Positions 4,286-26,746 of a DNA stretch of 64,000 bases are shown piece by piece; positions within the stretch are counted from its first letter, which is position 1; each line of letters begins with the position of its first letter. Source of the DNA: Mesorhizobium sp. 113-3-3. GTDB lineage: Bacteria; Pseudomonadota; Alphaproteobacteria; Rhizobiales; Rhizobiaceae. The translations under genes and the position numbers were made by a program. The notes below the pieces were generated by a model that was not told where the DNA came from, ran no database searches, and saw only the letters and a list, made by a program, of their open reading frames with translations. The stretch lies in assembly GCF_016756495.1 (NCBI RefSeq), contig NZ_AP023243.1, positions 992,001-1,056,000 on the forward strand. Direction: 5' to 3'.

Positions 4286-4464
4286 GGCGCCGCCCCTCAC
4301 TGTCCTGCCGGACATCTCTCCCCGTAAACGGGGCGAGAGGAGCTGGCCGCAGCGCCTGCGCCTTTCTTGCGACGTTGGTGATTGGCGAAATCGGCGATTA
4401 AGGCGTCCCTCTCCCCGTCACTATACGGGGAGAGGATGCCGGCAGGCAGGTGAGGGGCAGCGCC
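4286..4464. repeat. Rhizobial intergenic palindromic element, copy C
   Basis: Same family as the element at 1228: left end GGCGCCGCCCCTCA, right end TGAGGGGCAGCGCC, internal CTCTCCCCGT arms in inverted orientation and a central CGAAATCGGCGATT-like core. It lies between two convergent genes. The remaining roughly 80 bp up to 4547 contain nothing I can identify. Confidence 0.85.
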
Positions 4465-4547
4465 AACGGTTGGCCATTGTGAATAGCTGATGTGACAAAA
4501 CAGGATGCTTAAAAATGTGCGGCCAGCCACACATCAAGAAGGCTTGG

Positions 4548-5789: not shown

Positions 5790-6051
5790 GGGTTTCTCCG
5801 GATGGCCTGGCGGCAACGGAGCATTGCGGGCGCGGACAATCAAGCGCCGAATGGGAGATCCGGCGGCCGGCAGATCGCGCATTGGCTGGTGCTGCAGGCG
5901 ACTGGCACGAAGACCCCGTGGGACTTGATACCCACCCCATCTCTTTCCAGGGGCGGCGCAAGCTTCGCCAATCGGCCGCCTCCGCCACGGGTTAGGATTG
6001 TTGGGCGCGTGTGCCCTACGGCTGTCGCAAGACAGCGAACGGCATTACCCG

Positions 6052-6642
6052 CTACTTGATCGATTCCAGCTTGGCCACCGCGGCGCCGAAGCCTTTGAGG
6101 GAAACCGGGATGGTCACCGGCTTGCGCGTCACCGATTCCATGCCGATGTTCATCGTCGTCCCCGACTTCATCGCCTTGGCCAGTTCCGGCGCCACCGGCA
6201 CCGCGGCATAGGCGCCGTTCTGGTCGCTGGTCTGGATGGCGATGGTGACTTTCTTGCCGCTGTCGACCTGATAGCTGACGCCCGACGGCAGGAACAGGCC
6301 GTGCGGCAAGGCGAGCAGCATGGCCAGGCTGCCATTGCCGCTGTCGCGGCGCACGGTCACGGTCAACACGCGCTGGCCTGTCTTGGCCTCGGTGAGGTTC
6401 TGCGACACCTGGCACTGAAGGTCGCCGGCAGCAGAGTCGCTGGAACAGTTAACCGCCCATGCATTGGCGTCGGCCGGCTTGGATCCGGCGTCCTTTGATT
6501 GAGACTGTTTGGCTTGGGCCTCTTTGGTGGTGTCCTCCGCAAGCGCCGGGCCAGAAGAAGCCGACAACAGCCACAGAGCAGCCGATGCCGCGACCATGCG
6601 AAGTAGATTAGACTTCGCTAAAATAATTGCCATGTTCTTCAT
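6052..6642 (-). CDS. Invasion-associated locus B (IalB)-family periplasmic protein
   Basis: The roughly 196-residue product has an N-terminal signal segment (LLRMVAASAALWLLSAS, cleavage near GPALA-ED) and a Lys/Gln/Asp-rich linker. The globular domain has the IalB pattern: WAVNCSSD near its start, then QNLTEAKTGQRVLTVTV and VTIPVSLKGFGAAVAKLE at the end. IalB proteins are small alphaproteobacterial envelope proteins first linked to Bartonella invasion; their biochemical role is not settled. The frame is open to 6804, but the ATG at 6642 (another at 6633) directly precedes the signal sequence. It is divergent from the giant surface-protein gene at 6886, so the two may share a regulatory region. 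Confidence 0.8.
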   Translation of the reverse strand: MKNMAIILAKSNLLRMVAASAALWLLSASSGPALAEDTTKEAQAKQSQSKDAGSKPADANAWAVNCSSDSAAGDLQCQVSQNLTEAKTGQRVLTVTVRRDSGNGSLAMLLALPHGLFLPSGVSYQVDSGKKVTIAIQTSDQNGAYAAVPVAPELAKAMKSGTTMNIGMESVTRKPVTIPVSLKGFGAAVAKLESIK

Positions 6643-6885
6643 GCCCCGCAGTTTTCCTTGCCCCGGCAGGTATTCTCCTGGAAAAGGCTTGATACAACAA
6701 GGGCGACGGTTCCGAAAGCCGAGTCCCTGGCCAAGCAAGCCGGCAAATCTACTGTGGCAATATGGCCACAGGACAGAACTTTGAGGTCGGACAACAACAC
6801 TCACAACATTCCGGGCTCGCTATACAATAGAATTCACGTAAGAATTAACACGCGGGACGTGTAGTCCCAGAAGGACTCGCCAGGG
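6643..6885. promoter_or_regulatory. Divergent upstream region of the IalB and giant surface-protein genes
   Basis: A 243-bp gap that is clearly more AT-rich than its surroundings from about 6780 to 6850. A TATACAAT stretch at about 6829-6838 is a possible -10 element for the rightward gene, although no convincing -35 is visible. A short hairpin, GGGAC-GTGTA-GTCCC at 6854-6868, lies just before the AAGGA ribosome site (6871-6875) and may shape translation of the giant gene. Confidence 0.4.
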
Positions 6886-9800
6886 ATGGGAACTACCGAG
6901 ACGTCTCGGCAGGTTGGTGGGATGGTTGCGCGTGGGGAGGCTTTCCACGTGCGCGCCGGCTATGGCCGTTTGCGAATTGCAAGACAGCTGTGGAAGACGA
7001 CGGCGCTGACGACGCTGGCGCTCGGCCTTTCAGGCGTGGTTGCCGATGCCGACCCCGACGGGCTCTGGCAGCCGCAGATCCGCGCCATTGTCGGCGCCGA
7101 CAACAATGGCGGCAACGCCGCGCTCGAAGGCTTCATACCGATCAAGCAGACGGCGGAATCGGTGCTGTTCCTCGATGTCCGGGCCAAGCACGATTTCAAG
7201 GATGCGTCGGGCCAGGACATCGGCCTCGGCATTCGCCGCATCGTCAATCCGGACCTGATGCTCGGCGGCTACGCCTATATCAACCTCGAGAACTACAGCG
7301 GCACGCAGTTCACCGCCGGCACGCTGGGCGTCGAGGCGATCACGCCGAATTTCGACGCGCATGTGAACGTCTTTGTGCCGATCAAGGGCGACTCGACCGA
7401 TCGTTCGACCAGCTCGACCCTGTCGATGGTCAGCAACCAGCTGATCGAACAGATATCGGTGCTCGACCACCGCGACTACGCGGCCTGGGGCATCGAAGGC
7501 GAGATCGGCGCCCAGGTTCCGGTCAACCTGCCCGACAAGCACTCGCTGCGGCTCGACATTGGCGGCTACCATTTCGAGGATCCGCACGGCGATGACGGCA
7601 GCGTGACCGGTGCCAAGGCCGGTTTCGAATACACGATCGGCGATGTCTTCGGCAGCGGCACCGAACTGGTCTTTGCCGGCGAGGTCCGCAACGACAATCG
7701 CGACGACACCCAGTTCGCCGGCAGCGTGCGGCTGAACATCCCGTTCAACCCCAGCCGCGGCTCGGACACGACCGCGGCCATCGGAACGGATCCGGTCTAT
7801 CCGGTCAGCGAAGGCCTGCGCAAGCGCGTCAACGAACGCGTGCGCGGCGATATCGGCGTCAGGATCCAGTCGCAGGAGATCAACGGCGGCACGACGACGC
7901 GGGTCGCCATCAACGCCGCCACAAATGCGGCGTTCGGCAAGTTCTATTTCGCCGATGGCGGCCTGGCGGGCGCCGGCACGCAGGCCGACCCGACGACGCT
8001 GGACGACGCGGTCACCAAGGCCGGCACCGGCGGTTTTGTCGTCGCGCTCGGCGGCAATGGCAACATCCAGACCCCGGGCCAGACGATTGCCGCCGGCCAG
8101 ACGCTTATCGGCGGCGGCGAAAGCGTCACCGCGAAACTGGCCAACGGCGGCACCGCCACCTTCAATCTCGGCGGCAGCGACGGCACGATCCAGGGCACCA
8201 ATGTCGCCAACAATGTCATCACGCTCGGCACCGGCAACACGCTGAACGGCATCACCATCACCGGCGGCGCCAACGGCATCTTCGGCAACAACGCCGCCGG
8301 CACGACACTGACCAATGTCACGGTGACGGGCGCCGGCGGCAACGGCGCCGAATTCAAGGGCAATTCGACCAATGTCAGCGCGTCCAATTTCACCGCGACC
8401 GGCAATGGCCTCGACGGCCTGCATATAGAAGACAACGGCACCTACAATTTCACCGGCACGACATTGCTGTCGGGCAATCTCGACGACGGTCTGGATATCA
8501 CTGGCCAGGGCACCTACACCTTCGCCACCGTCAATGCGCTGAACAATACTGATCGCGGCATAACCGTGCAGGGCACGTCGAGCGGCGGCAGCTTCACCAC
8601 CACCGGCGGCACCGTGTCGGGCAATGGCGGCATGGCCGTCTTCATCGACCCGATCACCGCGCATGTGGTGCTGGATTCGATCAGCCAGACGGGCGGCACG
8701 TCGGGCGTGGTGCTCGACCATGTTTCGGGCAGCTTCACCGTCAACGGCGCGACGACGATTTCCAACACGACGGGACCGGCGATCGCCATTTCCGATTCGC
8801 CGGCGACGATCCGCTTCGGCGACATCAACATCACCAATCCCGGCGCCGACGGCATGTCGTTTGCCGGCGTCAACGCGGCGGTGGTGGCCGGCAACATCGT
8901 CATTTCCGGCCTCGGCGTCGGCACGGGTCTCGACTTCTTCGGCAGCCAGACCAATTTCACCGTGCAGTCGCTCAACATCACCGGGCCTGGTGCCGCCGGC
9001 ACCATCGGCATCGATCTCGCAGGCACCACGGGCGGCGCTTCGATCATCATCACAAATGGCGGTTCCATTTCGGGCGTCGATACCGGCGTTCGCTTCGGCA
9101 TATCCGGGTCGCTCGCCAGTTCGGCCAATGCCGAATTCAGCTTTGGCGGCGGCTCGATCGCCGGCAGCACCGCTTCGCTCGACGCGCGCGGCCTCAACCA
9201 GACGCTCGGCCATTACGCGTTCGGCTCGACCAGCTTCAGCGGCCCGCAGCTGTTCGACCCGCAGAACGTGATCTTCGTCGGCTCGACGGCGACCGGCCTG
9301 ATGGACGGCTCCTCGCTGTCGAACCTCGCCTCGTTCACCACGGCCAATGCCAACACCGACAGCAACGCCATCTTCGTGCTGGTCAACGATGGTACGCCCA
9401 TCGATGCTTCGGGTGGCTTCTCGCTCAGCAGCGGGCAGACGCTGGCGTCTTTCGGCAATGGCCGCTCCTTCTCGCTCGGCGGCGTGCCGATCAATATCAC
9501 CGGCGACAATGTCCAGCATGGCGTGACCGTCTCGGACCCGGCCGGCGCGGCGACGCTGACCAATTCCGGGGCCGGCGATGTCGTGACGCTGGCCAACAAC
9601 ACCTCACTGCTCGACTTCAACATTTCAGGCGGCGGCGCCAACGGCATCCATGGCAGCGGCGTCAGCGCGGTCACCATCTCCGGCCTGAACGTCACGGGCG
9701 CGGCTTTGAACGGCGTGCTGTTCGACGGCACCAACAGCATCACCGCCAACAATCTGAACTCGAGCGGCAACACCGGCAGCGGCCTCGAGATCGACAGTGG

Positions 9801-12800
9801 CGACGGCACCTACAATTTCACCGGTACGACGACACTCTCGAACAACACCGGCCAAGGCCTGCTCGTCGGCGGCGCCGGAACCTATGGATTCGAGACGCTC
9901 GACGCCAAGAACAATGGCGCCCAGGGCGTCTTTGTCACCTCGCTCGGCGCCGCAAAACTGACGATAACGGGCGGCACGATTTCGGGCAACGGCCTCCAGG
10001 GCGTGCTGATCCAAAGTCTCGGGCTTGGCAACGGTACCGAACTCGATGTCACGCTGGACTCGGTGAGCCAGACCGGCGGACAGAATGCCATCGGCCTGTC
10101 CCACACCAGCGGCAATTTCTCCGTCACCGGCACGACGACGGCCTCCAACACGCTTTTTGACGGCATTTTCATAGGAGACAGCTCCGCCACCGTCGATTTC
10201 GGCGGCGCGGTCACCATCACCCAGCCATCCCGCGACGGCATCCGCCTGTTAAACAACACAGGCACGATCAGCTTCCACGGCACGACGACGATCACAAATC
10301 CGGGCGCCTTCAACAGCGCAATCAGGGTCGGAAACAGTGGCCCAGTCCACTTCGCCGATGTCGACGTCACCGGGCTGATCGGCGGCAGGAGCGGGCTCAG
10401 CGTCTCGGGGACATCGGTCTTCACCGCGACCACGCTCGATGTCACCGGCACCGGGACCTCGACCGGCATCGACCTCTCCGGCACCAATGGCGGCTCGGTG
10501 ACCATCGGCAGCGGCGTCATTTCCGCCGGCACCGGCGTGCAGATGGGCACCAATGGCCAGGTCGGCACCACCGCCAACACGACATTCTCGTTCGGTGCCG
10601 CCGGCGGCGCCGTCATCACCGGCACGACGGCGTCGCTCGACATGCGGGGCCTGTCGCCAGGCAGCGGCACCTATGCCTTCAACACCACGGTGCTGAACGG
10701 TCCGCAGCTGTTCGACATCGCCAATGTCATCTTCGTCGGCGCCGCCAGCACCAACGCTGGTGACGGCTCCAGCGTCAACGACCTGATCAACGCCACCGCG
10801 GCGGACGCCCTGGCGGCTCCCGCCAACACGATCTTCGTGCTGGTCAACAACGGGACCGGAAACATCAACACGGATGCCGACGGCTTTACGCTTGCCGACG
10901 GCCAGTCGATCGTTTCCTTCGCCAATGGCGCCTCGGTGAGCCTTGGCGCGCCGCCCGCCAATGTCACCGGCACGAATGTCATCAGCGGCACGCAATTCCA
11001 GGCCGATCCTTTCGGCAATGGCGGTGCGACGCTCAACAATTCGGCCGGCAACACCATCGATCTTGCCAACGGCAACCTCGTCGCCAACCTCACCGTCAGC
11101 AGCTCCGCCACCGCAATCGATGGAACGGGCATCGCTGGCGCAACGATCAACGGCGTGACGGTCAGCAGCGCCGCGACAGGCCTCGTCCTCGACGGCGTGA
11201 CCGGCACGGTGACGGTCGGCGGTCTCAATGTCCAGAATGCGAGCCAGACCGGCATCGCGCTTGTCGGTTCGAGCGCGATGGTCAATTTCACCGGCAACAC
11301 GAAGATCGCCAACGCCACCAGTGTCGGGCTGTTCGCCAACAATTTCGACGGCACCGCCAGCTTCGACGATCTTGACGTCACCGGCGGCGGCACAGGCGTC
11401 GGCATCGTCGCCGGCTCGAGCGGAACCATGACGTTCGGGACCGGGAGTTCCATCGCCGGTACGATCAGCAACGCCTTCTCGATCACCAACTCCACGCCCA
11501 ACGTCACCTATAACGGCACCATCAGCCAGACCGCTGCTGCAAGCGCGGTGAGAATTTCCAACATGACCGGCGGCACCGCCACCTTCGGCGGAAAGATCAC
11601 CGCCAGCACCGGTGCGGCCAATGCGATCGACCTGACCGGCAACACCGGCGGCACGGTCAACTTCAATGGCGGTCTCGACCTGACGGCCGATGGCGGCTTC
11701 GCCTTCAGCGCCGTCGGTGGCGGCACGCTGACGGTGACCGGCTCCAGCAATACCGTGGCGACCGGTCTCGGGCCGGATGAAAAGGGCATCCAGATCGCCG
11801 GCATGACGATCGGCGCGGCCGGGGTGAACTTCTCCAGCGTTGCCGTGGACGGCTCGGGCGGCGGCGTTTCGACCGGCATCGCCATTTCCAACACCAGCGG
11901 CGGCAACGTCACCTTTGGCGGCGTCGACCTGTATCGCATCAGCGGCGTCGCCATCAGCCTCAACAATGTCAGCGGCACCTACAGCTTCAACGGCACGACC
12001 AAGGTCGACACCGTGGTGGGCGGCGGCGCCGGCTTCCTGGTTCAGAACAGCGCCGCGACCGTCAATGTCGGCAATCTCGTCACCACGAATATTGCCGGCG
12101 CCGATGTCAGCCTGGCCAACAACACCGGCACGATCGGCATTGGCGGCACCATCACCAACAGCGGCTCGGGCGACGGCGTCGTCGTCTCCGGCGGCAGCGC
12201 GGCGATCACGGTGTCGGCGGCCATATCCAGTTCGGCGACCGCACCGGGCACGGCGGTCAAGGTCGACGGCATCACCGGCGGCTCGGTGGCCTTCAGCGGC
12301 GCGGTCAATTCGACCGGGACCGGGACAGGCGTGTCGGTCTCGAACACCGCCGGCGGCAGCAGCGTCGGCTTCGGTTCGGTGACCGTGTCGGGTGCCGCCG
12401 GCAACGGCATCGACATATCAGGCAATGCCGGCTCGGTAACGTTCGCCGGCACGACCGGCGTGACGCTGGGATCGGCCGCCAACGCCGCCGGCATCAATTT
12501 CAGCGGCACCAATGCCAATGTCACCTTCGGCGCGACCAACGTGACCATGGGCGCCGGCGCCGGCCAGACCGGCATCGACTTCACGGGTTCTTCCACGACG
12601 GCCGGTTTCGGCGTGACAACTATCACCGGCACCGGCATTCTCACCTCGCGCGGCATCGACCTGTCGTCGACGACGGGCAACAAGACCATCACCTTCCAGC
12701 GCGGCTCCAGCATCACCAATCTCGGCATCGGTGTTGAACTGGCGCACGATCTCACCACCGCGACCTCGGCCAATGCCAACTTCACCTTTGGTGACGGCAA

Positions 12801-18800: not shown

Positions 18801-21516
18801 CAATCTGGCGCTGACGGTGCCGTCGGCCATCCAGCTTGCCAGCAACACCCTCTCGATCGCCGACCAGACGCCCGGCGGCACCACCACTTTGACGACCGCC
18901 GACGGCGCCAACGTCATCACGCTCGGCGCCAGCGGCAACATCATCGACGGCTTTACCATCGACGGCAACGACAGCACCGGCGCCAATGCCGCGATCGGCA
19001 TTAGCGGCGGCACGGCGAACGCCACGATCCGCAACATGACGATCAGAAACGTCACCGCCACCGATATCGACTTCGGCGCCGGAGCCACCGGCACGACGAC
19101 GCTGAGCAATCTCTCGCTTTTCTCGACGGGGGCGGCCGGGACGGGCATCAAATTCGGCGCTGCCTCCGGAACGGTCACCGCGACCAATGTCGACTTCTCG
19201 GGTGGCGGCGGCCTGTCCGTCGTCGGCGGCAGTGCGGTGTTCAGCTTCGACAGCGCGAGCTCGATCTCCAGCCTCGCCGGCACCGCTGTCAGCATCACCA
19301 ACCGCACCGGCGGCAGCTTCGGCTTCGCCGGCACCGTCACGACGGGTACCGGGGGCAGCGGCATCGCCATCTCCGGCGCAACCGGCGTAGACACGGTCAG
19401 CTTCACCGGCGCCCTCAGTCTCGCCGCCAACGGCGGCACGGCTGTCTCGATCAACAATGGCGGCTTGGCCTCGACCGTCAGCTTCGCCAACCTCGCCATC
19501 ACGACGGGCGGCGCCAACACGGCCTTCACCGCGACCAATGGCGGCACGGTCACTGTCACCACCGGCTCGATCAGCGCGACGAACGCCCAAGCGGTCAACC
19601 TCAACGGCATCGCGGCCGGCATCAATTTCACGTCGACCACCTCGGGCGGCGGCGTCAACAATGTCGCGCTCACCAACGTCACCGGTACGGTGAACCTGGG
19701 CAGCGGCGCTCTGAGTGGCGCGACGACGGGTACGGCGTTCCTGGTTTCGGGCGGCTCGGCCAATATCGATTACAACGGCACCATCACCCACACCGCCAAC
19801 GCCACCGCGATCGACATCCAGAACCACAGCGGCACCGCCGGCGGCGCCAGCACGATCTCGTTCGACGGAACCGTGACGTCGAACGGCTCGAGCGATGGCA
19901 TCAACCTGGTCAACAATGGCGGCACCAACGGCACGAATATCAATTTCACCAACACGCTGACGATCAATACGAGCACCAGCGGCAGCACCGGCTTCAATGC
20001 AACCGGCGGCGGCACGGTCACCGCGACGGGTGGCACCGGCAGCACGATCACGTCCGGCAGCGGCACCGCGCTTAATGTGGTCAACACGACGATCGGCGCC
20101 TCGGGGCTGACGTTCCGGAGTATTTCGTCCAACGGCGCCGCCAACGGCATCGTGCTCAACAACACCGGCACCAGTGGCGGGCTGACGGTCACCGGCGATG
20201 GCGGCGGCGCGAACAATGGTTCGGGCGGAACGATCCAGAACTCGACCGGCGACGGCATAAGCCTGACGTCGACCCAGGATGCCCACCTCGCCTACATGAA
20301 CATCACCAACAATCTGGGCGACGGCATCGGCGGCTCGGGCATCAATGGGTTCGTGCTGAACCGGCTCAACATCTCCGGCAATGGCAATGACGCGGCGACG
20401 GACGAGTCCGGCATCAACATAACGCAATTGACCGGCACCGCCTCGAACGGCGCGCATGCGACGTCGATCAGCAATTCGGTGATCAGCAACAACAACGAAT
20501 TCGAGATTCAGATCGCGAACAGCTCTGGTACGTTGACGAATCTCCAATTCATCAACAACACGATCTCCAGCAACGGCCTGCCGATCAACGGCAATGTCAG
20601 CTCGCCCCATGGCAACCTCGTCAACTTCCTTGGCACGGGGTCGTCCACGATGGGGATCACGGTCACGGGCGGCAGCTTCACCGGAGATTGGAATGCCGCC
20701 TCTCCGCCCGCGACGATCACGGGCACCGGTCTGTTCGCCAATTCCGGTGGTACCAGCATGACGGTGAACGTGTCGGGCGCGACGTTCACAAACAACAATG
20801 CCGGCGTCGACGTGTCGACCGACCCGGCCGCGACCTCGCTTACCTTCGACATCGAGAGCAACACGTTCATCGGGCAACGTTCGACGGCCATCAATCATTT
20901 CGACAATGGCAACGGGCCTTTCAACAGAACGGTCAACGGAACGATCAAGAACAACATCATCGGCAACAACGCGGTCACCAATTCCGGCTCGAGCGTCGGC
21001 ACTGGCATCCAGATCCAGAACGAAGGCGCCGTCAACGGCAAGTATCTGATCGACGGCAATCAGATCTATCAAATCGCGACTGGACCCGGCATCAGCGTCA
21101 ATGTCGGCCTTGCCGGTCAGGCGACAGGCGGTGGTGAAACCGATCTCACCATTACCAACAACATTTTCGACCATATCAACGGCAGCCGCGCGATCACCGT
21201 CCAGGACAATCAGGTTACCAATATCGCGTCTCCGCCGGGGGCTGGTCCTTTCCCGACCATCTGGCTCAACCTTCAGGGCAATTCCTTCGCCAACATCGCC
21301 GGTCAGGCCGGCAATGGCCAATACGTGCGTCTCAAACAGTCGTACGGCGTCTTCAAGGTCACGCAGTCGGCCGCCACTGCCGGAGCAAACGCCGGCGAAC
21401 TGGATGACGCAAACGGCATCAACGACCCGACCAAGTTCAGCACCAGCAGCACCAGCGGCAGCATTCAATACGGCCAGGGGGCCGCGCCCTTGCCGACGAC
21501 CAACCCTCTGCCTTGA
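6886..21516 (+). CDS. Giant inverse-autotransporter-like surface protein with beta-helix passenger (4,876 aa)
   Basis: The frame is open for 14.6 kb. Residues 1-30 form a leader extension, and 31-55 a hydrophobic signal segment (LTTLALGLSGVVADA). Residues about 60-290 resemble the intimin/invasin-type (type Ve) beta-barrel: LGIRRIVNPDLMLGGYAYI, then LGVEAITPNFDAHVNVFVPI, and paired amphipathic strands. Residues 308-330 (LRKRVNERVRGDIGVRIQSQ) match the linker after such barrels. From residue 350 to the end the chain is Gly/Thr/Asn/Ser-rich, with repeated short turns (NNTGT, TGTTTL, GAGGNG, NFTGT) typical of a right-handed parallel beta-helix. There is no C-terminal barrel or YadA-like anchor; the protein ends in QYGQGAAPLPTTNPLP. 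The likely role is a very large exposed adhesin or biofilm factor (inference). The barrel call is from pattern recognition, without a profile search. Confidence 0.75.
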   Translation: MGTTETSRQVGGMVARGEAFHVRAGYGRLRIARQLWKTTALTTLALGLSGVVADADPDGLWQPQIRAIVGADNNGGNAALEGFIPIKQTAESVLFLDVRAKHDFKDASGQDIGLGIRRIVNPDLMLGGYAYINLENYSGTQFTAGTLGVEAITPNFDAHVNVFVPIKGDSTDRSTSSTLSMVSNQLIEQISVLDHRDYAAWGIEGEIGAQVPVNLPDKHSLRLDIGGYHFEDPHGDDGSVTGAKAGFEYTIGDVFGSGTELVFAGEVRNDNRDDTQFAGSVRLNIPFNPSRGSDTTAAIGTDPVYPVSEGLRKRVNERVRGDIGVRIQSQEINGGTTTRVAINAATNAAFGKFYFADGGLAGAGTQADPTTLDDAVTKAGTGGFVVALGGNGNIQTPGQTIAAGQTLIGGGESVTAKLANGGTATFNLGGSDGTIQGTNVANNVITLGTGNTLNGITITGGANGIFGNNAAGTTLTNVTVTGAGGNGAEFKGNSTNVSASNFTATGNGLDGLHIEDNGTYNFTGTTLLSGNLDDGLDITGQGTYTFATVNALNNTDRGITVQGTSSGGSFTTTGGTVSGNGGMAVFIDPITAHVVLDSISQTGGTSGVVLDHVSGSFTVNGATTISNTTGPAIAISDSPATIRFGDINITNPGADGMSFAGVNAAVVAGNIVISGLGVGTGLDFFGSQTNFTVQSLNITGPGAAGTIGIDLAGTTGGASIIITNGGSISGVDTGVRFGISGSLASSANAEFSFGGGSIAGSTASLDARGLNQTLGHYAFGSTSFSGPQLFDPQNVIFVGSTATGLMDGSSLSNLASFTTANANTDSNAIFVLVNDGTPIDASGGFSLSSGQTLASFGNGRSFSLGGVPINITGDNVQHGVTVSDPAGAATLTNSGAGDVVTLANNTSLLDFNISGGGANGIHGSGVSAVTISGLNVTGAALNGVLFDGTNSITANNLNSSGNTGSGLEIDSGDGTYNFTGTTTLSNNTGQGLLVGGAGTYGFETLDAKNNGAQGVFVTSLGAAKLTITGGTISGNGLQGVLIQSLGLGNGTELDVTLDSVSQTGGQNAIGLSHTSGNFSVTGTTTASNTLFDGIFIGDSSATVDFGGAVTITQPSRDGIRLLNNTGTISFHGTTTITNPGAFNSAIRVGNSGPVHFADVDVTGLIGGRSGLSVSGTSVFTATTLDVTGTGTSTGIDLSGTNGGSVTIGSGVISAGTGVQMGTNGQVGTTANTTFSFGAAGGAVITGTTASLDMRGLSPGSGTYAFNTTVLNGPQLFDIANVIFVGAASTNAGDGSSVNDLINATAADALAAPANTIFVLVNNGTGNINTDADGFTLADGQSIVSFANGASVSLGAPPANVTGTNVISGTQFQADPFGNGGATLNNSAGNTIDLANGNLVANLTVSSSATAIDGTGIAGATINGVTVSSAATGLVLDGVTGTVTVGGLNVQNASQTGIALVGSSAMVNFTGNTKIANATSVGLFANNFDGTASFDDLDVTGGGTGVGIVAGSSGTMTFGTGSSIAGTISNAFSITNSTPNVTYNGTISQTAAASAVRISNMTGGTATFGGKITASTGAANAIDLTGNTGGTVNFNGGLDLTADGGFAFSAVGGGTLTVTGSSNTVATGLGPDEKGIQIAGMTIGAAGVNFSSVAVDGSGGGVSTGIAISNTSGGNVTFGGVDLYRISGVAISLNNVSGTYSFNGTTKVDTVVGGGAGFLVQNSAATVNVGNLVTTNIAGADVSLANNTGTIGIGGTITNSGSGDGVVVSGGSAAITVSAAISSSATAPGTAVKVDGITGGSVAFSGAVNSTGTGTGVSVSNTAGGSSVGFGSVTVSGAAGNGIDISGNAGSVTFAGTTGVTLGSAANAAGINFSGTNANVTFGATNVTMGAGAGQTGIDFTGSSTTAGFGVTTITGTGILTSRGIDLSSTTGNKTITFQRGSSITNLGIGVELAHDLTTATSANANFTFGDGNSADGLQSTISATAVGAYTVNTVGLNPASGNYDFDDVFFTGNANLASAVGVVTFVSQSGGVIAAGTDGLSMSVNTISVAAADALAGTQTFAFVGTVDLSGTPFTLDSGQSITGFGNSSSILVSGTIQPVNVQGNLGATGGNVTGNEGVVTGTGGLLNLLGNNQVRDTAFDFSGAIGSVFTIDQNAGGFNNAGGIVIEGVTVSNVASGSLAFNVTSLDTNLSIANNNINVAGTLLKVTGGTGNITLTRGTLPNSATAGTLTGGGVNIDSRTGGLVNFTDKVTVNGNGVSLTNNTGSTVTFADVDITTNGAAAFTATGGGAVNVTTGTINATNAQAVALDGITAGINFASTSATFASGNGIDLQKLSGTASFGTGTLTNTGLGTSFNVGSATALSGGNATISYGGTIATNGAGAAVSIQSMTGGSVTLSGNLADSNATAGGNILIAGNDSATITFSGSSKVISSGATDGVNIGFPGGFPLGTPSANTNSAINFTGGGLDITTTTGDGFEAIGDVVNFPPGPPSTITVSGTGNKVNSGADGLVVVGTNVGASGMTFDSITATSTNNAAGVLLQAADLAGDVNIGGLKDTGYIGASLAGLSGAGVVNFTGTTDLDVSYEGFEIGGQVGTVNIANVAGSTLTIDGSQIGIALAVLQTGTVNVGGNGGSASIGATTSTTGSAITLSGGNNLVSGTLNYNGSIKVDTGTVLQAGGGDWTHLNMSGSVVSTTAVALPGTAAFVFSGNAEGVYNISSTIDHTGTAVGVLFDGSSEGTVTFSGTSKIFNTSSGTNDAIVKAPSIGAGQGTGTLNFTNGGLVITTSSGAGFTASTLSPGTVSVSGTGNSITTGTGTALKLDGATVGAGGINFDTISSNGAATGISLNNVSGGTLNLGAVNLQNITSRGVDVSGTLGSTLNFTSLNIGLNAASAVGLDLNGAALGASNITAGDFDVDGGSFAGTIGIDMAGTTGTGTIQLGDTVNNNPGPAGQTSTIANVGYGVQFSSATNAKLVFGDGQGPAESSIATTGGQVIHATDTLPTNGDYNFNDVNFTGDTANLASISVYYVTAGGTGDGSLANPGSYLGAQASTANVVVLIDQNVNGAQETIDLSGTTFNLDDGQVLLAFKSGDAAVDVSTLGVDTSGGASAAFHFTTVQNSPIIAAPGGIDTLRPILQSNNATSVINFATSGTGTFTGGIENLIVRNLGSGAGVAVNAAGASNFILRNNDIAAGGNALNFATTGAPANTLLLSIDGNTLRSTASGLAASFSGQNISATDNSIAIRSFAGNKVTGGAGSGGIVFNNVRFDSDGAGGTVSAGTLAMGNPGARIQGNGLSFTNTSGTLDLGQLNLANTGGTGVLANTKGAGTIFTLNSSAGVVATNSGAAFNLDPLTVNMTFSSVSASSGASGIIFDGVAGTFTVTGATSISSTTGFGIDAINTNTGTFNFNTVAVNNAAATGGGIHVASGTLNVTGLANIDTTSGIGLSQNGGTTSFTGGLTIDTTTGTGIFGNGGTIGITATAGAETVNSTLGQAIDLGSMQANIALDSTSSGGGGDNVSLVLVDGALNLGSGTLTGATSSSFNVNGGTAAVSYSGNITKSSGSGAAVIVQGRLAGAGLVALSGNLTSNVNGIVLSANSGGTVTVSGASNNFTGAGFGIAITGNSGGTYNINGASYTIGMTGGGTGVSISGNSSPVTMNFGGGLAITTAAGAGFSATGVGTLNVTGSSNTISTGSGTALSLNGLTVGAGGVNFSSVSANGAATGISLTNVISSGGGTIALGTVNLQNITSRGVDVTGTLGVALSFNDLDIGLNSSTGVAFDLNGAAINAAITANDFDVTNAAAAGTSIGVDLQGASGGQTVRLGDTVVGGNSSSIAGVNTGVFLNSTTNLAFVYGDGESATDQLSTISANVGIDASSAPVAGTYNFQDVNFQSSPGLGFGIGKIYFVGASATGDGTGRDQNNLATLSTAEAASVASDILVLVNDQGVITAQGTNGNDTLVLLASEQVRGFDNGNINLALTVPSAIQLASNTLSIADQTPGGTTTLTTADGANVITLGASGNIIDGFTIDGNDSTGANAAIGISGGTANATIRNMTIRNVTATDIDFGAGATGTTTLSNLSLFSTGAAGTGIKFGAASGTVTATNVDFSGGGGLSVVGGSAVFSFDSASSISSLAGTAVSITNRTGGSFGFAGTVTTGTGGSGIAISGATGVDTVSFTGALSLAANGGTAVSINNGGLASTVSFANLAITTGGANTAFTATNGGTVTVTTGSISATNAQAVNLNGIAAGINFTSTTSGGGVNNVALTNVTGTVNLGSGALSGATTGTAFLVSGGSANIDYNGTITHTANATAIDIQNHSGTAGGASTISFDGTVTSNGSSDGINLVNNGGTNGTNINFTNTLTINTSTSGSTGFNATGGGTVTATGGTGSTITSGSGTALNVVNTTIGASGLTFRSISSNGAANGIVLNNTGTSGGLTVTGDGGGANNGSGGTIQNSTGDGISLTSTQDAHLAYMNITNNLGDGIGGSGINGFVLNRLNISGNGNDAATDESGINITQLTGTASNGAHATSISNSVISNNNEFEIQIANSSGTLTNLQFINNTISSNGLPINGNVSSPHGNLVNFLGTGSSTMGITVTGGSFTGDWNAASPPATITGTGLFANSGGTSMTVNVSGATFTNNNAGVDVSTDPAATSLTFDIESNTFIGQRSTAINHFDNGNGPFNRTVNGTIKNNIIGNNAVTNSGSSVGTGIQIQNEGAVNGKYLIDGNQIYQIATGPGISVNVGLAGQATGGGETDLTITNNIFDHINGSRAITVQDNQVTNIASPPGAGPFPTIWLNLQGNSFANIAGQAGNGQYVRLKQSYGVFKVTQSAATAGANAGELDDANGINDPTKFSTSSTSGSIQYGQGAAPLPTTNPLP
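7934..18850 (+). repeat. Six super-repeat modules inside the giant surface protein
   Basis: A module of about 75 residues recurs six times. It starts with a strand such as VIFVGSTATG, IYFVGASATGDG or VYYVTAGGTGDG, continues through IFVLVND-type or VVVLIDQ-type strands, and ends in a GF-L-GQ-(I/T)-F-G turn. Modules start near 7934, 9271, 10729, 12949, 15958 and 18586 (residues about 350, 796, 1282, 2022, 3025 and 3901). The beta-helix blocks between them vary from about 1.3 to 3.0 kb. This is a repeat at protein level; the DNA copies have diverged. Confidence 0.7.
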
Positions 21517-21710
21517 TCGGCCTGTGCCAAAGATTTTGTTTACCAGAGGGAGCTAAAAAACCAGCTTGCAAAGTAATGAAATCGGTTGTTGAATAGAGCA
21601 GAGAAAACTGTTCTAACTAGCAGAAAAATTTAAGTAACTGGGTCGGCCTTTTTGCAAGTGTCTCTTGCGAAATGGAAGGTCTGTGCTTGTTGTTATGCAA
21701 AGGGGCGACG
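21517..21710 (+). other. AT-rich gap before the tail-collar genes
   Basis: A 194-bp stretch much richer in A/T than its surroundings (for example 21535-21650), between the giant gene and the first collar gene. It probably carries the promoter of the collar operon, but I cannot fix a -35/-10 pair. The AAGGGGCG ribosome site of the next gene ends the gap. No clear terminator with a T-run follows the giant gene. Confidence 0.35.
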
Positions 21711-22223
21711 ATGGCGGAACCGTTTCTTTCCGAAATCCGAATCATGTCTTTTGTCTTCGCACCAAAGGGTTGGGCGCTGTGCAACGGACAGCTTCTCCCA
21801 ATCAATCAGAACCAGGGGCTTTTTTCGCTGCTCGGCACCACTTTCGGTGGCGATGGCCGGGTGAACTTCGGCCTGCCCGACTTTCGGGGCCGTATTCCGG
21901 CCCATGTCGGCAACGGCCATACACTGGGCGAGCGGGGTGGGGAGCAGGCGCATACGCTTTCGATAGGCGAACTGCCTCAGCATACGCACGTCGCAAACGC
22001 ATCCACCACGCAGGGCGACTCGAACAACCCGAATTTCGCGAATGTCGGCAACGTCCTGGCGAAGGATCCGGGAAACATCTATGGCCCCGCGAGCAATCTG
22101 GCGGCATTGAACGCCGGGAGCGTGTCCAGCATCGGCGGCAGCCAGGCGCATCTGAACATGCAGCCCTTCCTGACGCTCAGCTTCTGCATCGCCCTGCAGG
22201 GCATCTTCCCCTCGCCGACCTGA
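21711..22223 (+). CDS. Phage tail collar-domain protein 1 (MdpB-like)
   Basis: The 170-residue product belongs to the tail-collar family that includes phage short-tail-fibre domains and the bacterial microcystin-dependent protein MdpB. The N-terminal collar domain is clear: EIRIMSFVFAPKGWALCNGQ, LFSLLGTTFGGDG and FGLPDFRGRIPAH. A His-containing ELPQHTH segment follows, and the C-terminus is the MQPFLTLSFCIALQGIFPS block shared by all three paralogs here. The ATG at 21711 has AAGGGGCGACG in front; the frame is open further upstream but without that support. There is no signal peptide. The genes at 22236 and 22752 follow with 12-nt gaps, so they form one operon. No phage structural or lysis genes are nearby, so this is not an ordinary prophage. 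Confidence 0.85.
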   Translation: MAEPFLSEIRIMSFVFAPKGWALCNGQLLPINQNQGLFSLLGTTFGGDGRVNFGLPDFRGRIPAHVGNGHTLGERGGEQAHTLSIGELPQHTHVANASTTQGDSNNPNFANVGNVLAKDPGNIYGPASNLAALNAGSVSSIGGSQAHLNMQPFLTLSFCIALQGIFPSPT

Positions 22224-22235
22224 GGATTAGCGACC

Positions 22236-22739
22236 ATGGCACAACCCTATGTTGGCGAAGTTCGTATGTTTGCCGGCAATTTCGCGCCGGCAGGCTGGAT
22301 GTTCTGCGAAGGGCAGCTTTTGCCGATCTCTGAGAACGAGACGCTGTTCAACCTGATCGGCACCACCTATGGCGGCGACGGCGAAAGCACTTTCGCGCTG
22401 CCCGACCTGCGTGGCCGGCTTCCTCTTCACCAGGGCAATGGTTTTACCCTTGCGGAGACGGGAGGCGCCGAGGAGATAACGCTGACGATCCAGCAGATTC
22501 CGGCGCATTCCCATCCGTTTCTGGGGAACATCGGCAATGGATCGCAGGCGTCGCCACAAAACAATGTGCTTGCAAGTTCGACGCTGGTCCAACTGTACGC
22601 CGCGGAAACAGCCGACGCCAACATGGCGACATCAGCCATCTCCTCCGTAGGCGGCAGCCAGCCGCATACGAATTTCCAGCCCTATCTCTGCGTCAATTTC
22701 ATCATCTCGCTGTTCGGCATTTTCCCGTCGCAGACTTGA
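22236..22739 (+). CDS. Phage tail collar-domain protein 2 (MdpB-like)
   Basis: The 167-residue second paralog of the collar operon. It keeps the same order of motifs: EVRMFAGNFAPAGWMFCEGQ, LFNLIGTTYGGDG, FALPDLRGRLPLH, a QIPAHSH turn and the C-terminal block FQPYLCVNFIISLFGIFPS. It begins 12 nt after gene 1 with TGAGGATT upstream. The paralogs differ most between the collar and the last 30 residues, as expected for specificity regions (inference). The role is not known from sequence; in phage this fold trimerises at fibre tips. Confidence 0.85.
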   Translation: MAQPYVGEVRMFAGNFAPAGWMFCEGQLLPISENETLFNLIGTTYGGDGESTFALPDLRGRLPLHQGNGFTLAETGGAEEITLTIQQIPAHSHPFLGNIGNGSQASPQNNVLASSTLVQLYAAETADANMATSAISSVGGSQPHTNFQPYLCVNFIISLFGIFPSQT

Positions 22740-22751
22740 AGAGAGACCGTC

Positions 22752-23279
22752 ATGGCCGATCCGTTCGTCGCCGAAATCCGTATCTTCCCGTTCAATTTCG
22801 CGCCCAAGGGTTGGGCGTGGTGCGACGGCCAGTTGCTGCCATTGTCGCAGAACACGGCTTTGTTCTCGCTGCTGGGCACCACCTATGGCGGCGACGGCAA
22901 GTCCAATTTTGCCTTGCCCGACCTGCAGGGCAGCGTGCCCATGCACCCCGGCCAAGGCCCAGGGCTTTCCCTGCATGATCTCGGCGAAACTGGCGGTTCG
23001 GAAACCGTAACTCTGCTGGAGTCCGAGATTCCGATGCACAACCACACGATGCGGGCGACCGTCGAAAATGGAACGCAGGGTACGCTGACCCCCGGCATCA
23101 CGCTGGCAACATCGGCCAACGGAGCCGTGTTTCAAAAGACCACCAACGCCAATCTGGTGCCTATGAGCCCCAACGCACTTGCCCCCGCCGGCGGCGACCA
23201 GCCGCACAACAATATGCAACCCTATCTCACCTGCTATTTCTGCATCGCGCTGCAGGGCGTCTTCCCGCCGAGAACCTGA
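22752..23279 (+). CDS. Phage tail collar-domain protein 3 (MdpB-like)
   Basis: The 175-residue third paralog. The motifs are EIRIFPFNFAPKGWAWCDGQ, LFSLLGTTYGGDG and FALPDLQGSVPMH, an EIPMHNH turn, and the C-terminal block MQPYLTCYFCIALQGVFPP. GAAGAGAGA precedes the ATG and the gap to gene 2 is 12 nt. Three consecutive diverged copies point to a heteromeric assembly rather than recent duplication (inference). The protein has no signal peptide, so if it works at the surface it needs a dedicated export route or release by lysis. Confidence 0.85.
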   Translation: MADPFVAEIRIFPFNFAPKGWAWCDGQLLPLSQNTALFSLLGTTYGGDGKSNFALPDLQGSVPMHPGQGPGLSLHDLGETGGSETVTLLESEIPMHNHTMRATVENGTQGTLTPGITLATSANGAVFQKTTNANLVPMSPNALAPAGGDQPHNNMQPYLTCYFCIALQGVFPPRT

Positions 23280-23309
23280 ATTCCGAGCCAACAGGGCACG
23301 ACTCACGCG

Positions 23310-24641
23310 ATGGCCAAGAAAGCAGAACCGAAATCGAAGTCATCGGCCCCCGCGACAAAGAAGCCGGCGGCACCGAAAGCCGCTTCCAAGGCGAAAGGTA
23401 ATATCAGTTCGCGGCAGTCCGGACCCGCGCCCGTCTACCAGAGCATGCCGGGGGGCACGTCGTTCTTCGAACTGTCGCGGCTGATGGTGGTGGGCATCGA
23501 TTCCGCCAAGAGCCAGCTGATTCAGAAGGCGCAGACCTCGCCGAACGGGCCTTGGCCTTCCGCATGGTCACCGATCGCGCCCGGCGCCTGGGTGATCATG
23601 ACGGCTGGCCTGACGAAGGACGGCCGCGTTGCCGTGGTCGCACAGCCGTCAGGCACCACCAATCTGTCCTTCATCACCGAGGATGCCAACCAGATCGGCC
23701 CGATCGACAAATGGAACTCGCCGGTCGGCATCGGTGCACCGCCTGGCGCCACAAGCTACCAGAAGCTGACGATGGCCAATGATGCCGATGGCCGCATCGA
23801 AATCTTTCTCACCGACAATCAAGGCCGCATCTGGTGGATCTACCAGAATCCCGACCAGGTCGTGCAGGTGCAGAAAACCATCACGCCGCCCGGCACCACC
23901 GCGCCGATCGTCGTCACCGTCGATGTGCTCGCGCCACCGGCCAAGCCGTGGAGCGACTGGCAGCAGCTTACCGGTCAGCTGGTGACGGTCACCGCCATAC
24001 GCCAGGGCGACGGCCGCATCGCGCTGTTCGGTATCAATTCGAACCTGAATCTCTACCGCTGCCAGCAGGCGAAGCCGCAGCCGCTGAAGGTGGCCGACTG
24101 GACGGGATGGGTACAGATTGACACCACGCAAACCGGCGGTTTCATCGAGATGGCGCCGGCGATCGGGCCGCTGGGCGCCACCAATCTGTTTGCCATGAAC
24201 AGGGGCGGGCAGGTGCTGCACACGCGCCAGATGCCTGCCGGATCGGACAGCTGGACGCAATGGGCGACACCGGGTTACTCCAGGTGGCCCCAAAACGCGC
24301 TCGCCGCAGGCATTCAGGGCGATGGCGACATCGTGCTGGTCGCCACCGACCAGCAGCATGTCCTCCAGTTCAACGCGCAGTGGGATGCCAAGACCCAGAA
24401 CTGGTCGGGATGGCGCGATTTCGGTTTCGCCCTCAACTCAGCGCGCCTGTCGCTCAACTACAATGCCGACGGTCGGCTCGCTTTGTTCATGCTGATGGTC
24501 ATGCCCGACGGCACAAGTGGGCTTTGGACGATCAACCAGATGGCCATCGACAGCTCCGAATGGGAATATGACTGGATGGCGCTGACCACCAGTAACCTCA
24601 AGCAGATCGTCGTGGTGCGCGACCTGACGCCGCCGGTCTGA
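23310..24641 (+). CDS. Beta-propeller (PLL/tectonin-like lectin) protein with basic N-terminal tail
   Basis: The 443-residue product starts with a Lys/Ala/Pro-rich, histone-H1-like tail (residues 1 to about 33). The rest consists of repeated blades with the pattern DGRI-(A/E)-(L/I)-F followed by W-W elements: ADGRIEIFLTDNQGRIWWI, GDGRIALFGINSNLNLYRC, WTGWVQI, WSGWRDF and ADGRLALFMLMV. This resembles fucose-binding PLL-type and tectonin-type propellers. No signal peptide is visible. It follows the third collar gene by 30 nt and precedes a GNAT gene by 12 nt, so it belongs to the same operon. Glycan binding is inferred from the fold only. Confidence 0.65.
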   Translation: MAKKAEPKSKSSAPATKKPAAPKAASKAKGNISSRQSGPAPVYQSMPGGTSFFELSRLMVVGIDSAKSQLIQKAQTSPNGPWPSAWSPIAPGAWVIMTAGLTKDGRVAVVAQPSGTTNLSFITEDANQIGPIDKWNSPVGIGAPPGATSYQKLTMANDADGRIEIFLTDNQGRIWWIYQNPDQVVQVQKTITPPGTTAPIVVTVDVLAPPAKPWSDWQQLTGQLVTVTAIRQGDGRIALFGINSNLNLYRCQQAKPQPLKVADWTGWVQIDTTQTGGFIEMAPAIGPLGATNLFAMNRGGQVLHTRQMPAGSDSWTQWATPGYSRWPQNALAAGIQGDGDIVLVATDQQHVLQFNAQWDAKTQNWSGWRDFGFALNSARLSLNYNADGRLALFMLMVMPDGTSGLWTINQMAIDSSEWEYDWMALTTSNLKQIVVVRDLTPPV

Positions 24642-24653
24642 CGCGCAGGCGGC

Positions 24654-25184
24654 ATGGCGGGTCTGGAACAGTTCTCTCGGGTCTGGTCCCGGTCGCGCGA
24701 GGCCGGGCTCGCCTTTCGTGCCTCGACCGATGCGGATCTGCCGTTCCTGTCGCGTCTCTATGCCTCGACGCGCCTGGAAGAACTCGCCGTGACGGACTGG
24801 AGCGAGGCGCAGAAGGCCGCTTTCCTCGACATGCAGTTCCAGGCGCAGCACGCGCACTACAGAAAACACTATCCCGAGGCCGACTGGCTGGTGGTGGAGC
24901 GGGCCGGGCAGGACATTGGCCGCCTCTATATCGAGCGCTGGCCGAGCCAGCACCGCATCATCGACATCGCTTTCCTGCCGGAGCATCGCCGCAAGGGATA
25001 CGGCTCGGCGCTGCTGCGCGACCTCATCGACGAGGCATGGTTTGCCGGCAAATCAGCATCGATCCATGTCGAGAAGAACAATCCGGCCAGGCTCCTCTAT
25101 GTCGAGCTCGGCTTCAAGGTGATCGAGGACAAGGGTGTCTATGATCTGATGGTGTGCACGCCGCCTGGCGCCAGCACTCCATGA
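24654..25184 (+). CDS. GNAT-family N-acetyltransferase in the collar operon
   Basis: The 176-residue product has the GNAT fold. After an N-terminal LAFRASTDADLPFLSRLY start, the acetyl-CoA loop is RRKGYGSALLRDL (motif A, R-x-x-G-x-G/A) and motif B reads HVEKNNPARLLYVELGF. It lies 12 nt after the propeller gene on the same strand and ends the operon; a repeat element follows. Its substrate is unknown. Given the context it may acylate one of the collar or propeller proteins or a cell-surface amine (inference). Confidence 0.85.
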   Translation: MAGLEQFSRVWSRSREAGLAFRASTDADLPFLSRLYASTRLEELAVTDWSEAQKAAFLDMQFQAQHAHYRKHYPEADWLVVERAGQDIGRLYIERWPSQHRIIDIAFLPEHRRKGYGSALLRDLIDEAWFAGKSASIHVEKNNPARLLYVELGFKVIEDKGVYDLMVCTPPGASTP

Positions 25185-25193
25185 TCGACGGGC

Positions 25194-25330
25194 GGCGCCG
25201 CCCCTCATCTGCCTGTCATCAACGGTTTCGCCAATCACAAGCGTTGCCGAGAATGCGCCGGCGTCGCAGCTAAATCCTCTCGCCCCGTTTACGGGGGGAG
25301 ATGTCCGGCAGGACAGTGAGGGGCAGCGCC
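25194..25330. repeat. Rhizobial intergenic palindromic element, copy D (shortened)
   Basis: Same ends as the element at 1228: GGCGCCGCCCCTCATCTGCC at the left and GTGAGGGGCAGCGCC at the right. It is shorter than copies A and C, with the left internal CTCCCCGT arm missing, so it looks internally deleted. It separates the 3' end of the GNAT gene from the convergent DUF6916-like gene; about 70 bp of unremarkable sequence remain on its right. Confidence 0.8.
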
Positions 25331-25404
25331 GACGGTAAAGATTGTCACATTCGGCCCAGTCACAATCCGGTAGGGCCTCCATGCATGTCGCCCAGAACCG
25401 TGTG

Positions 25405-25674
25405 CTAATTGAACACCGCCTCGTAAAGCCGCCCGGTCGCGTCGGCGGCGACCGGGACGATGAAGATGTCGTGCACCCCGCTTGTGCCGGTGAAGCGATA
25501 GGTCGCCTGCGGCAGCGGCGTTTCGCGCGGGCCCCGGAAGATCAGCGAAAAGCCGCCGCCCGGACGCGGGCTGGCGGGAATAGGTTTGACCGCGCTCAGT
25601 TCCAACGAGACCCACTGGCCGCCGGCTTCCACGGTGAATTCCTGCCCCTGTTCGAAATCCGCTAGCGACGCCAT
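25405..25674 (-). CDS. DUF6916-like protein
   Basis: The 89-residue product is a compact all-beta protein. The N-terminal half is FEQGQEFTVEAGG followed by LELSAVKPIP, then RPGGGFSLIFRGP, LPQATYRF and a terminal GRLYEAVFN. To my recollection this matches the DUF6916 family, of unknown function and often coded near tail-collar genes. The frame is open to 26007, but the ATG at 25674 follows GAGGCGG and starts at the domain border; the longer N-terminus is compositionally random. It is convergent with the collar/propeller/GNAT operon and divergent from sapC, which suggests a shared locus. Confidence 0.65.
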   Translation of the reverse strand: MASLADFEQGQEFTVEAGGQWVSLELSAVKPIPASPRPGGGFSLIFRGPRETPLPQATYRFTGTSGVHDIFIVPVAADATGRLYEAVFN

Positions 25675-25960
25675 GCCATCCGCCTCATTCCACTTGCGTT
25701 GCGGGCGCAATCTCGCCGCTTCGCGGCAGGCTGTCCAGAGGCGGGCGGCAGCCCCGAGCGCCGGGCGAGACAATTCGCCGGGGCAAAGCGCAAAATACCG
25801 CAAGCGTCGTGCTTTTATGCGCGCCACGGACACTGTAGTACTTTGTTCCCGCGCCGGAGTCTTGGCCCAACCAAGATCAGCGCAACAAGAGCAGATGCCA
25901 GTCTTGGGGTCTGATGCGGAACAGCCGGCGCGATCAGCCGGCGGGAGAAAGGGACGGACC

Positions 25961-26746
25961 ATGGCTGATATCGCGGCAAGGACGGAGGCGGCGCAGGCGG
26001 ATGCCATGCCGCTGTTCTATTCCAGGCCCGAAGCGCTCAACCCGGTGCGGCATGGTTCGCTGGGCCTGACCGCGCGCGGCGACTTTGCCTTCGCGCGAGC
26101 CGCGCATGCCATTCCGGTGGTGGCGTCGGAAATGCCGGCGGCGATGCGCTCCTACCCGATCGTCTTCATCGGCCCGGCCAAATCACCTGTCATCATCACC
26201 GGCGTGCGCCAGGGCGAGAACCTGTTCGTCGATGCCGACGGAAGGTGGACCGCGCCGCACTACATCCCCGCCTATGTCCGCCGCTATCCCTTCATCCTTG
26301 CCGAGGATCCGACCACGGCAGGCCGGCTGACGCTGTGCGTGGACCGGGCCAGCGAACGGGTCATCGACCAACTGATGGCGCCATTCCGCGAAGACAAGAT
26401 CGCACCGTTCTTCAGCGGCAACGAGCCGACCGAAGCGACCAAGCAGGCGCTCGCCTTCTGCAACCAGTTCCAGATCGACTTCAGGGCCACACGCGAAATG
26501 ATCGACAAGATCGACGCGCATGGCCTGTTCGCGCCGCGCCAGAGCAAGGTGACGCTGGAAGGCGGCGAAGTGCTCAACCTCACCGATTTCCAGGTGATCG
26601 ACGAGCCGGCCTTCAACAAACTGAGCGACGAGGCCTTCCTCGACCTGAGAAAATCCGGCGCGCTCGGCCTGCTCTACTGCCACCTCGCCTCGACCAACAG
26701 CTGGACATCGCTGGTGCACCAGGCATCGCTGCGCAAGGCGGGGTGA
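25961..26746 (+). CDS. SapC-family protein
   Basis: The 261-residue product fits the SapC family (named after a Campylobacter S-layer gene). Typical features are FYSRPEALNPVRHGSLGL at the start, then FAFARAAHAIPVVASEM, YPIVFIGP, YIPAYVRRYPFIL, and a C-terminal ALGLLYCHLASTNSW. It has no signal peptide. The ATG at 25961 follows GGGACGGACC; the frame is open upstream to 25586 but the extra part overlaps the DUF6916 gene antisense and is not family-like. SapC proteins have no settled function; in several Proteobacteria they sit near surface or tail-like genes, which fits this locus. Confidence 0.8.
   Translation: MADIAARTEAAQADAMPLFYSRPEALNPVRHGSLGLTARGDFAFARAAHAIPVVASEMPAAMRSYPIVFIGPAKSPVIITGVRQGENLFVDADGRWTAPHYIPAYVRRYPFILAEDPTTAGRLTLCVDRASERVIDQLMAPFREDKIAPFFSGNEPTEATKQALAFCNQFQIDFRATREMIDKIDAHGLFAPRQSKVTLEGGEVLNLTDFQVIDEPAFNKLSDEAFLDLRKSGALGLLYCHLASTNSWTSLVHQASLRKAG

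Follow-up and report, generated by a model that had tools for sequence, protein, structure and literature searches.

Introduction

Tail-collar domains (PF07484) occur in phage short tail fibres and collars such as T4 gp12 (1ocy) and in a long tail fibre (8kec). Phage fibre tips are homotrimers, an HxH motif binds metal in these trimers, and phage collar heads act outside cells. Among bacterial surface proteins, the inverse autotransporters intimin and invasin (PF11924) carry passengers made of Ig-like domains. Here we describe a locus of Mesorhizobium sp. 113-3-3 in which a gene for a giant surface-type protein is followed by three tandem tail-collar genes (collars 1, 2 and 3), a GNAT acetyltransferase gene and a DUF6916 gene. 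The locus lies in a stretch of 64,000 nucleotides (contig NZ_AP023243.1, positions 992,001 to 1,056,000 of the forward strand), which is called the window throughout and numbered from its first letter. The collars share the domain of the phage fibres; their profile aligns across the HxH motif with the solved phage fibres 8kec and 9qgo, and its match to T4 gp12 ends before this motif. Unlike phage fibres, the window collars are cell-encoded, constitute three distinct short paralogs and lie beside GNAT, DUF6916 and giant surface protein genes. The window giant has a putative divergent N-terminal barrel-type domain, which is related to inverse autotransporters through its relatives, but it differs from intimin and invasin in its predicted beta-helix passenger of about 4,500 residues and in the adjacent collar triplet, and anchors of other types occur among the remaining giants of the system. 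Giants with Big_9, Cadherin_4 and tandem-95 domains resemble BapA/LapA-like surface adhesins, but the giants described here share a beta-helix-type domain and adjoin the collar-GNAT-DUF6916 module.

The nearest studied relative that we found in the open literature is RhiB of Rhizobium leguminosarum, whose likeness to the window module lies in its tail-collar domain (PMC13133039); it is encoded in rhiABC, a quorum-sensing-regulated operon (PMC5977203). No description of a system combining a collar triplet with a giant protein was found in the open literature and, with subscription papers mostly outside the search, its novelty is provisional. The same literature yielded no paper on DUF6916 and none containing both 'phage tail collar' and 'GNAT'. 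The pair 'tail collar' and 'autotransporter' returned one E. coli genome paper, and a Pseudoalteromonas adhesin paper (PMC12153261) contains neither 'collar' nor 'tail fiber' in its main text. The results presented here describe a widespread module, usually beside a giant surface protein, that looks like an undescribed cell-surface attachment system.

Results

The collar triplet recurs with GNAT, DUF6916 and a giant protein

Relatives of collar 1 were sought in the genomes of 84,980 species, which gave at least 554 confirmed places. The best 80 were kept as named loci; they were chosen by collar-1 similarity only and are the best matches, not a random sample. Exactly three tandem collars were present in 78 of these 80 loci, which span nine phyla, and plasmid loci of Deinococcota make ten. 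In addition, 397 Pseudomonadota genomes were drawn evenly, and 74 of them carried a collar 1 relative at an E value of 1e-15. From this sample we took the 39 regions of 20 kb with at least two clustered collar matches, leaving out one genome with two far-apart matches (G356) and about three dozen genomes with single matches. Strict triplets were found in 28 of the 39 regions, from 26 genomes, with the window's own triplet counted in addition. At least three loci are shared by the named and sampled sets (L122/L026, L124/L063 and L125/L076), and L161 derives from a family sample.

A giant was defined as an open reading frame of at least 700 residues with more than 33% Gly, Ser, Thr and Asn within 4 kb of the triplet. 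Triplets were considered well flanked when at least 4 kb separated them from the contig or fetch end on both sides, which dropped 30 of the 78 named and 7 of the 28 sampled triplets. Under this filter, the named triplets were accompanied by a giant in 48/48 cases, by GNAT in 46/48 and by DUF6916 in 41/48, and the sampled Pseudomonadota triplets in 15/21, 19/21 and 16/21, respectively. Without it, the corresponding counts were 62, 69 and 60 of the 78 named triplets and 17, 25 and 21 of the 28 sampled ones. Among 1,200 random control points, taken from 60 windows of 12 genomes, a giant was found at 56, all of which fall in three windows, GNAT at 20 and DUF6916 at none. Because the GNAT, DUF6916 and collar profiles had been rebuilt once with matches from the first loci collected, the counts in named loci are not independent of them. 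No sampled region or random window entered profile building, save for the three sampled regions that repeat named loci. These results indicate that the collar triplet, GNAT, DUF6916 and the giant are a recurrent unit across phyla, far beyond chance. The initial annotation had proposed a functional unit, perhaps serving glycan binding or contact-dependent activity at the surface, that also included SapC and a propeller protein, had made co-occurrence beyond chance in other genomes decisive for it and had tied the giant and SapC to the collars by proximity only. The comparison of flanked triplets with random points bears out the core of this proposal, giant included. SapC and the propeller, each present in only 8 of 106 triplet loci, drop out of the unit as additions made in Mesorhizobium-like lineages and a few others. 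Together with the IalB gene described below, they are lineage-specific and not part of the core.

The arrangement of the giant varied among the 115 triplets. It lay upstream on the same strand in 48, of which 17 placed it only 11-58 nucleotides from collar 1, downstream on the same strand in 30 and on the other strand in 10. No giant was seen in the remaining 27, and 21 of these lie within 4 kb of a contig or fetch end. In the window, DUF6916 lies on the minus strand, a point that the initial annotation did not give, and cannot share an operon with the plus-strand collar genes, yet it recurs beside them across phyla. The module is also carried by plasmids: eight annotated loci, from Aminobacter, Comamonas, two Deinococcus, Ruegeria, Paenibacillus, Sinorhizobium and Pontibrevibacter, each have three tandem collar genes with an adjoining gene of 2.7-12.5 kb. 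An annotated acetyltransferase stands beside the collars in seven of the eight, and a DUF6916-type gene in five, four of which had been used as seeds while the fifth (L005) was found by profile.

As separate observations, single collar genes in L112, L116 and L121 are still flanked by GNAT and DUF6916-type frames, and a second DUF6916-like frame, often longer than the first, lies beside the module in L014, L048, L101 and others.

Many giants share a beta-helix-type domain that tracks the collars

The giants were compared through a 260-residue alignment of their C-terminal domain (A7), built from 20 loci and having a beta-helix-like sequence pattern. Searches were rerun with hmmsearch --max, as default filters undercounted A7 in long repetitive giants. 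An earlier profile of the 75-residue C-terminal tail (A3) was too narrow, with a match in 1 of 397 genomes (beside collars), and was replaced by A7. A7 was present in 33 of the 59 named triplet loci outside its build set and in none of the 60 random windows, as well as in 3 of 7 plasmid triplets. It occurred in six phyla among the named loci and in two Deinococcus plasmids, giving seven phyla in all. In the 397 Pseudomonadota genomes it was found in six, and in all six its end lay no more than 400 bp from a collar cluster; five of these genomes belong to a single genus, and the profile already included at least two of the six (the window and G289/L076). In 25 genomes reached via named loci, for which coordinates were compared, 21 of 22 A7 matches lay in giants at the collar locus, and the lone match away from it was a 716-residue frame in G703; 16 of the 20 genomes with an A7 match had their locus in the profile and four (L036, L041, L054 and L086) did not. 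Many giants thus share a domain that tracks the collars, and the association of the giant with them goes beyond the proximity on which the initial annotation had relied.

Among 55 proteins that include their own stop, the domain ended within six residues of the C-terminus in 41, and it was internal in the Bacteroidota giants L036 and L089. At the other end, 55 of 74 giants with their own start carried a hydrophobic stretch among their first 120 residues. Domain content was scanned in 22 giants, the window's and 21 picked for diversity. Big_9 was found in 13, Cadherin_4 in 11 and tandem-95 in 14, and the surface anchors recognised were type 9 secretion system sorting domains in four, autotransporter barrels in two, IPTL-CTERM in two and CWB2 in one. 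The recognised anchors differ by lineage, indicating that the anchor follows the lineage while the neighbouring genes stay.

Two further loci showed unusual giants. In L039 (Acidobacteriota), two giants flank the collar triplet, each with A7. In L091, from Bradyrhizobium, A7 is followed by a metallopeptidase-like HELGHVLGL stretch at the end of the giant (443-6967), in which no N-terminal hydrophobic stretch was seen.

The three collars are old, distinct and largely position-specific paralogs

On a tree of the 189 collars of 63 loci, the position label required 20 changes, compared with 85-101 in five within-locus shuffles, indicating that the three collars are old, distinct and largely position-specific paralogs. 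For window collars 2 and 3, the two nearest rows of the tree were L014 and L012, and for collar 1 L012 was the nearest and L014 the third. Identity to the window collars reached 81-85%, always at the same position, and the triplet therefore seems to move as a unit. L012 and L014 are Acidobacteriota metagenome bins, in which such identity would be explained either by transfer of the triplet as a whole or by misbinning of contigs.

The HxH motif was present in 324 of the 345 collars of the 115 triplets, including all three of the window, and P-x-H-x-H was invariant in a 23-row alignment. Fused collars were found in three loci. L153 encodes one protein (9171-10670) whose three collar units are circularly permuted and which also bears a signal-like N-terminus and a PEPxxWA-CTERM (E 2.1e-14). 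In L154, one protein (9168-11360) joins three collars to eight RTX stretches (E 2.5e-45). The third, L151 (8595-10274), combines two collar domains and GNAT in a single reading frame.

A second context of the triplet is an enzyme cassette

Some of the sampled triplets (L131, L136, L139, L144, L145, L147 and L148, from five families) adjoin at least one gene for an Asn-synthase-like enzyme, a sulfotransferase or an HprK-like kinase. All three genes are present in L131, L136, L139 and L144, and also in L151, L152 and L156, three more regions with two or fused collars near cassette genes. No giant accompanies L131, L136, L144 and L145, all of them well flanked, and the other three cassette triplets are cut by the sequence end. 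None of the three gene types was found in the 78 named loci or the 60 random windows. For the Asn-synthase-like enzyme the nearest NCBIfam model was a lasso-peptide cyclase, well below its cut-off, and the cassette resembles lasso-peptide tailoring clusters. L145 also has an ABC transporter and a TPR-GT41 protein. Two other well-flanked triplets were found without a giant: L129, with a 462-residue secreted-looking protein nearby, and L149, which has neither GNAT nor DUF6916.

Proposed function and alternative explanations

We tentatively favour a displayed heterotrimeric collar head that works with the giant adhesin over a cytoplasmic maturation complex. By analogy with the homotrimeric tips of phage fibres, the three collars would combine in a 1:1:1 ratio to form a trimeric head built around a metal that the HxH motifs hold. 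This head would work with the beta-helix domain of the giant, probably by docking on it. In the inverse-autotransporter-type layout of the window this domain would lie at the distal tip, and the head could be the receptor-binding end of a long adhesin, probably directed to a glycan or a surface. GNAT may acetylate a residue of the collars or the giant in the cytoplasm before display, and DUF6916 may be an assembly helper. A trimer is indicated indirectly by the largely position-specific paralogs, by the widespread HxH motif and its alignment with the phage fibres, and by the three collar units joined in L153; the collar-GNAT fusion of L151 favours a part for GNAT. Display is supported most strongly by the export features of the two triple-collar fusions and by the giant domain that tracks the collars, and the lineage-typical surface anchors of several giants also fit it. 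A broader version is more speculative: a cross-phylum system in which an obligate heterotrimeric head of phage type, acetylated by GNAT, would be displayed on giants through the beta-helix docking domain independently of how each adhesin is secreted and anchored, with some lineages swapping the adhesin for a modification cassette. If this were true, a phage receptor-recognition fold would have been recruited as a fixed three-subunit set for bacterial surface proteins in ten phyla, a function would be available for DUF6916 and for proteins annotated 'tail fiber protein', and A7 would be a marker for a class of giant adhesins.

Several observations weigh against display, and they are considered here with the explanations that they favour. 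RhiA, which is co-encoded with the collar protein RhiB, has served as a marker for the cytoplasm and reportedly went undetected in the medium (PMC2275737). The strongest of these observations are the near-universal lack of signal sequences in the collars and the collar-GNAT fusion. In a crude hydropathy scan of whole frames, only 7 of 345 collar frames had a hydrophobic 12-residue stretch among their first 60 residues and 338 had none (an earlier scan inside the matched domain only gave 6 of 345), so most collars look cytoplasmic. No signal sequence was seen in the L151 fusion, which fits cytoplasmic collars, and the triple-collar fusion of L154 has no HxH. Cytoplasmic collars would be expected of a maturation complex in which the collars, GNAT and DUF6916 would fold, modify or deliver the giant without being displayed themselves, a role like that of Asp1-3 for serine-rich adhesins. 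The acetyl-CoA that GNAT needs is cytoplasmic, GNAT is joined to two collars in L151, and since the anchors of the giants span several export routes, one cytoplasmic step could serve all of them. However, both triple-collar fusions bear secretion features and phage collar heads act outside cells; we also count against it that Sec-exported proteins cross unfolded, which makes a docked head hard to explain. We regard this complex as unlikely, although it is the most serious competitor of the displayed head.

Less probable still is that the collars, GNAT and DUF6916 form a free-standing module, such as a lectin that is modified, released by lysis or exported by an unconventional route. Its partners would be giants or the modification cassette, and its frequent link to giants would not be mechanistic. 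At least one cassette gene adjoins 7 of the 28 sampled triplets, with no giant seen, and four of these seven are well flanked; such loci weaken the claim that the collars act only via giants. More generally, 6 of the 21 well-flanked Pseudomonadota triplets have no giant, and of these six, five keep GNAT and four DUF6916. Further points count against the favoured displayed head: one- and two-collar loci also occur, A7 was found in only 5 of the 28 sampled triplets and in 33 of the 59 named ones outside its build set, and on the collar tree positions 1, 2 and 3 need 14, 15 and 8 changes, respectively, with 93 of 183 inner branches weak. Against a free-standing module, a giant lies near all 48 well-flanked named triplets, its gene is located 11-58 nucleotides upstream of collar 1 in 17 loci, and A7 tracks the collars. 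Homology of the collars to phage fibre and minor tail proteins would also be expected of a domesticated prophage or tailocin remnant, with leftover fibre genes sharing no function with the giant. We rejected this explanation, which is very improbable: beyond these three, the 7.73-Mb genome encodes no collars at E 0.001, no capsid, tube, sheath, lysis or integrase genes were found among the nine flanking window genes scanned (a claim of the initial annotation that holds for these neighbours), the triplet is conserved with largely position-specific paralogs in ten phyla, and the best phage match among the 20 of 403 records listed reached 41% identity. An anti-phage defence or decoy module, to which phage-like receptor-binding domains within a cellular gene set might point, is equally improbable, as its usual partner is a surface protein, and a known defence system was rejected when none of six proteins matched PADLOC models at E 0.01.

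The window giant has a putative divergent inverse-autotransporter-type N-terminus

The initial annotation had called the window giant an inverse autotransporter. Its N-terminus itself has no match to Pfam IAT_beta (PF11924), and the only PDB profile match was intimin, weak at E 0.31. Of 199 genomes from the order, 18 (the window's own included) carry relatives of this N-terminus by profile search, often within shorter proteins. Among nine scanned proteins, taken from the 17 matches that lie outside the genus, IAT_beta was above the cut-off in eight and just below it in the ninth. On the basis of these relatives, we call it a divergent inverse-autotransporter-type putative barrel with a predicted beta-helix passenger. 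At E 0.01, Beta_helix was the sole Pfam match in the passenger and no Ig-like domains were found. The giant has a divergently oriented IalB neighbour in the window and in each of the six further loci read with this type of N-terminus (L004, L223, L224, L225, L226 and L227, the last a weak relative). In the window, this gene lies just outside the interval of the initial annotation.

Gene content of the window

Open reading frames and Pfam matches confirmed the gene order, sizes and positions given by the initial annotation (Table 1). All three collars exceed the curated PF07484 cut-off, and gaps of 12 nucleotides separate collar 1 from collar 2 and collar 2 from collar 3. The propeller gene is present as annotated, and its fold is unproven, resting on a sub-threshold FG-GAP match and on distant plasmid proteins, some of them annotated 'tectonin'. 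A promoter scan of 21400-26100 found no promoter-like sites where 1.2 were expected. In the same interval there were nine terminator-like sites compared with 4.2 expected, none of them in the gap between the giant and collar 1 (21517-21710).

Table 1. Features of the collar locus in the window
Feature	Position	Strand	Basis and remarks
Giant surface protein, 4,876 residues	6886..21516	+	Outer-membrane-barrel-like N-terminal domain, predicted beta-helix passenger, conserved C-terminal domain
Divergent inverse-autotransporter-type N-terminal domain (putative), residues 1-340	6886..7905	+	Relatives by profile; extended signal region
C-terminal beta-helix-type domain of the giant (A7)	20734..21513	+	Fold predicted from sequence
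Tail-collar protein, position 1	21711..22223 (alternative start 21672)	+	PF07484, E 8.9e-26; HTH at the HxH site
Tail-collar protein, position 2	22236..22739	+	PF07484, E 5.5e-29; HSH
Tail-collar protein, position 3	22752..23279	+	PF07484, E 4.5e-28; Gp10_C PF21939, E 1.5e-6; HNH
Propeller-like protein, fold unproven	23310..24641	+	Sub-threshold FG-GAP, E 0.0021; lineage-specific accessory
GNAT acetyltransferase	24654..25184	+	PF00583, E 4.6e-12; core module; starts 12 nucleotides after the propeller-like gene
DUF6916 protein	25405..25674	-	PF21880, E 1.6e-23; core module
SapC-family protein	25961..26746	+	PF07277, E 1.3e-62; local accessory outside the core
IalB-family protein	6052..6804	-	PF06776, E 2.7e-28; divergent upstream neighbour of the giant, local accessory

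Further downstream, the window encodes a DNA polymerase III alpha subunit and an ImpB/MucB-type protein (31116-36328). We take this polymerase to be DnaE2-like, which together with the ImpB/MucB-type gene would resemble an SOS mutagenesis cassette.

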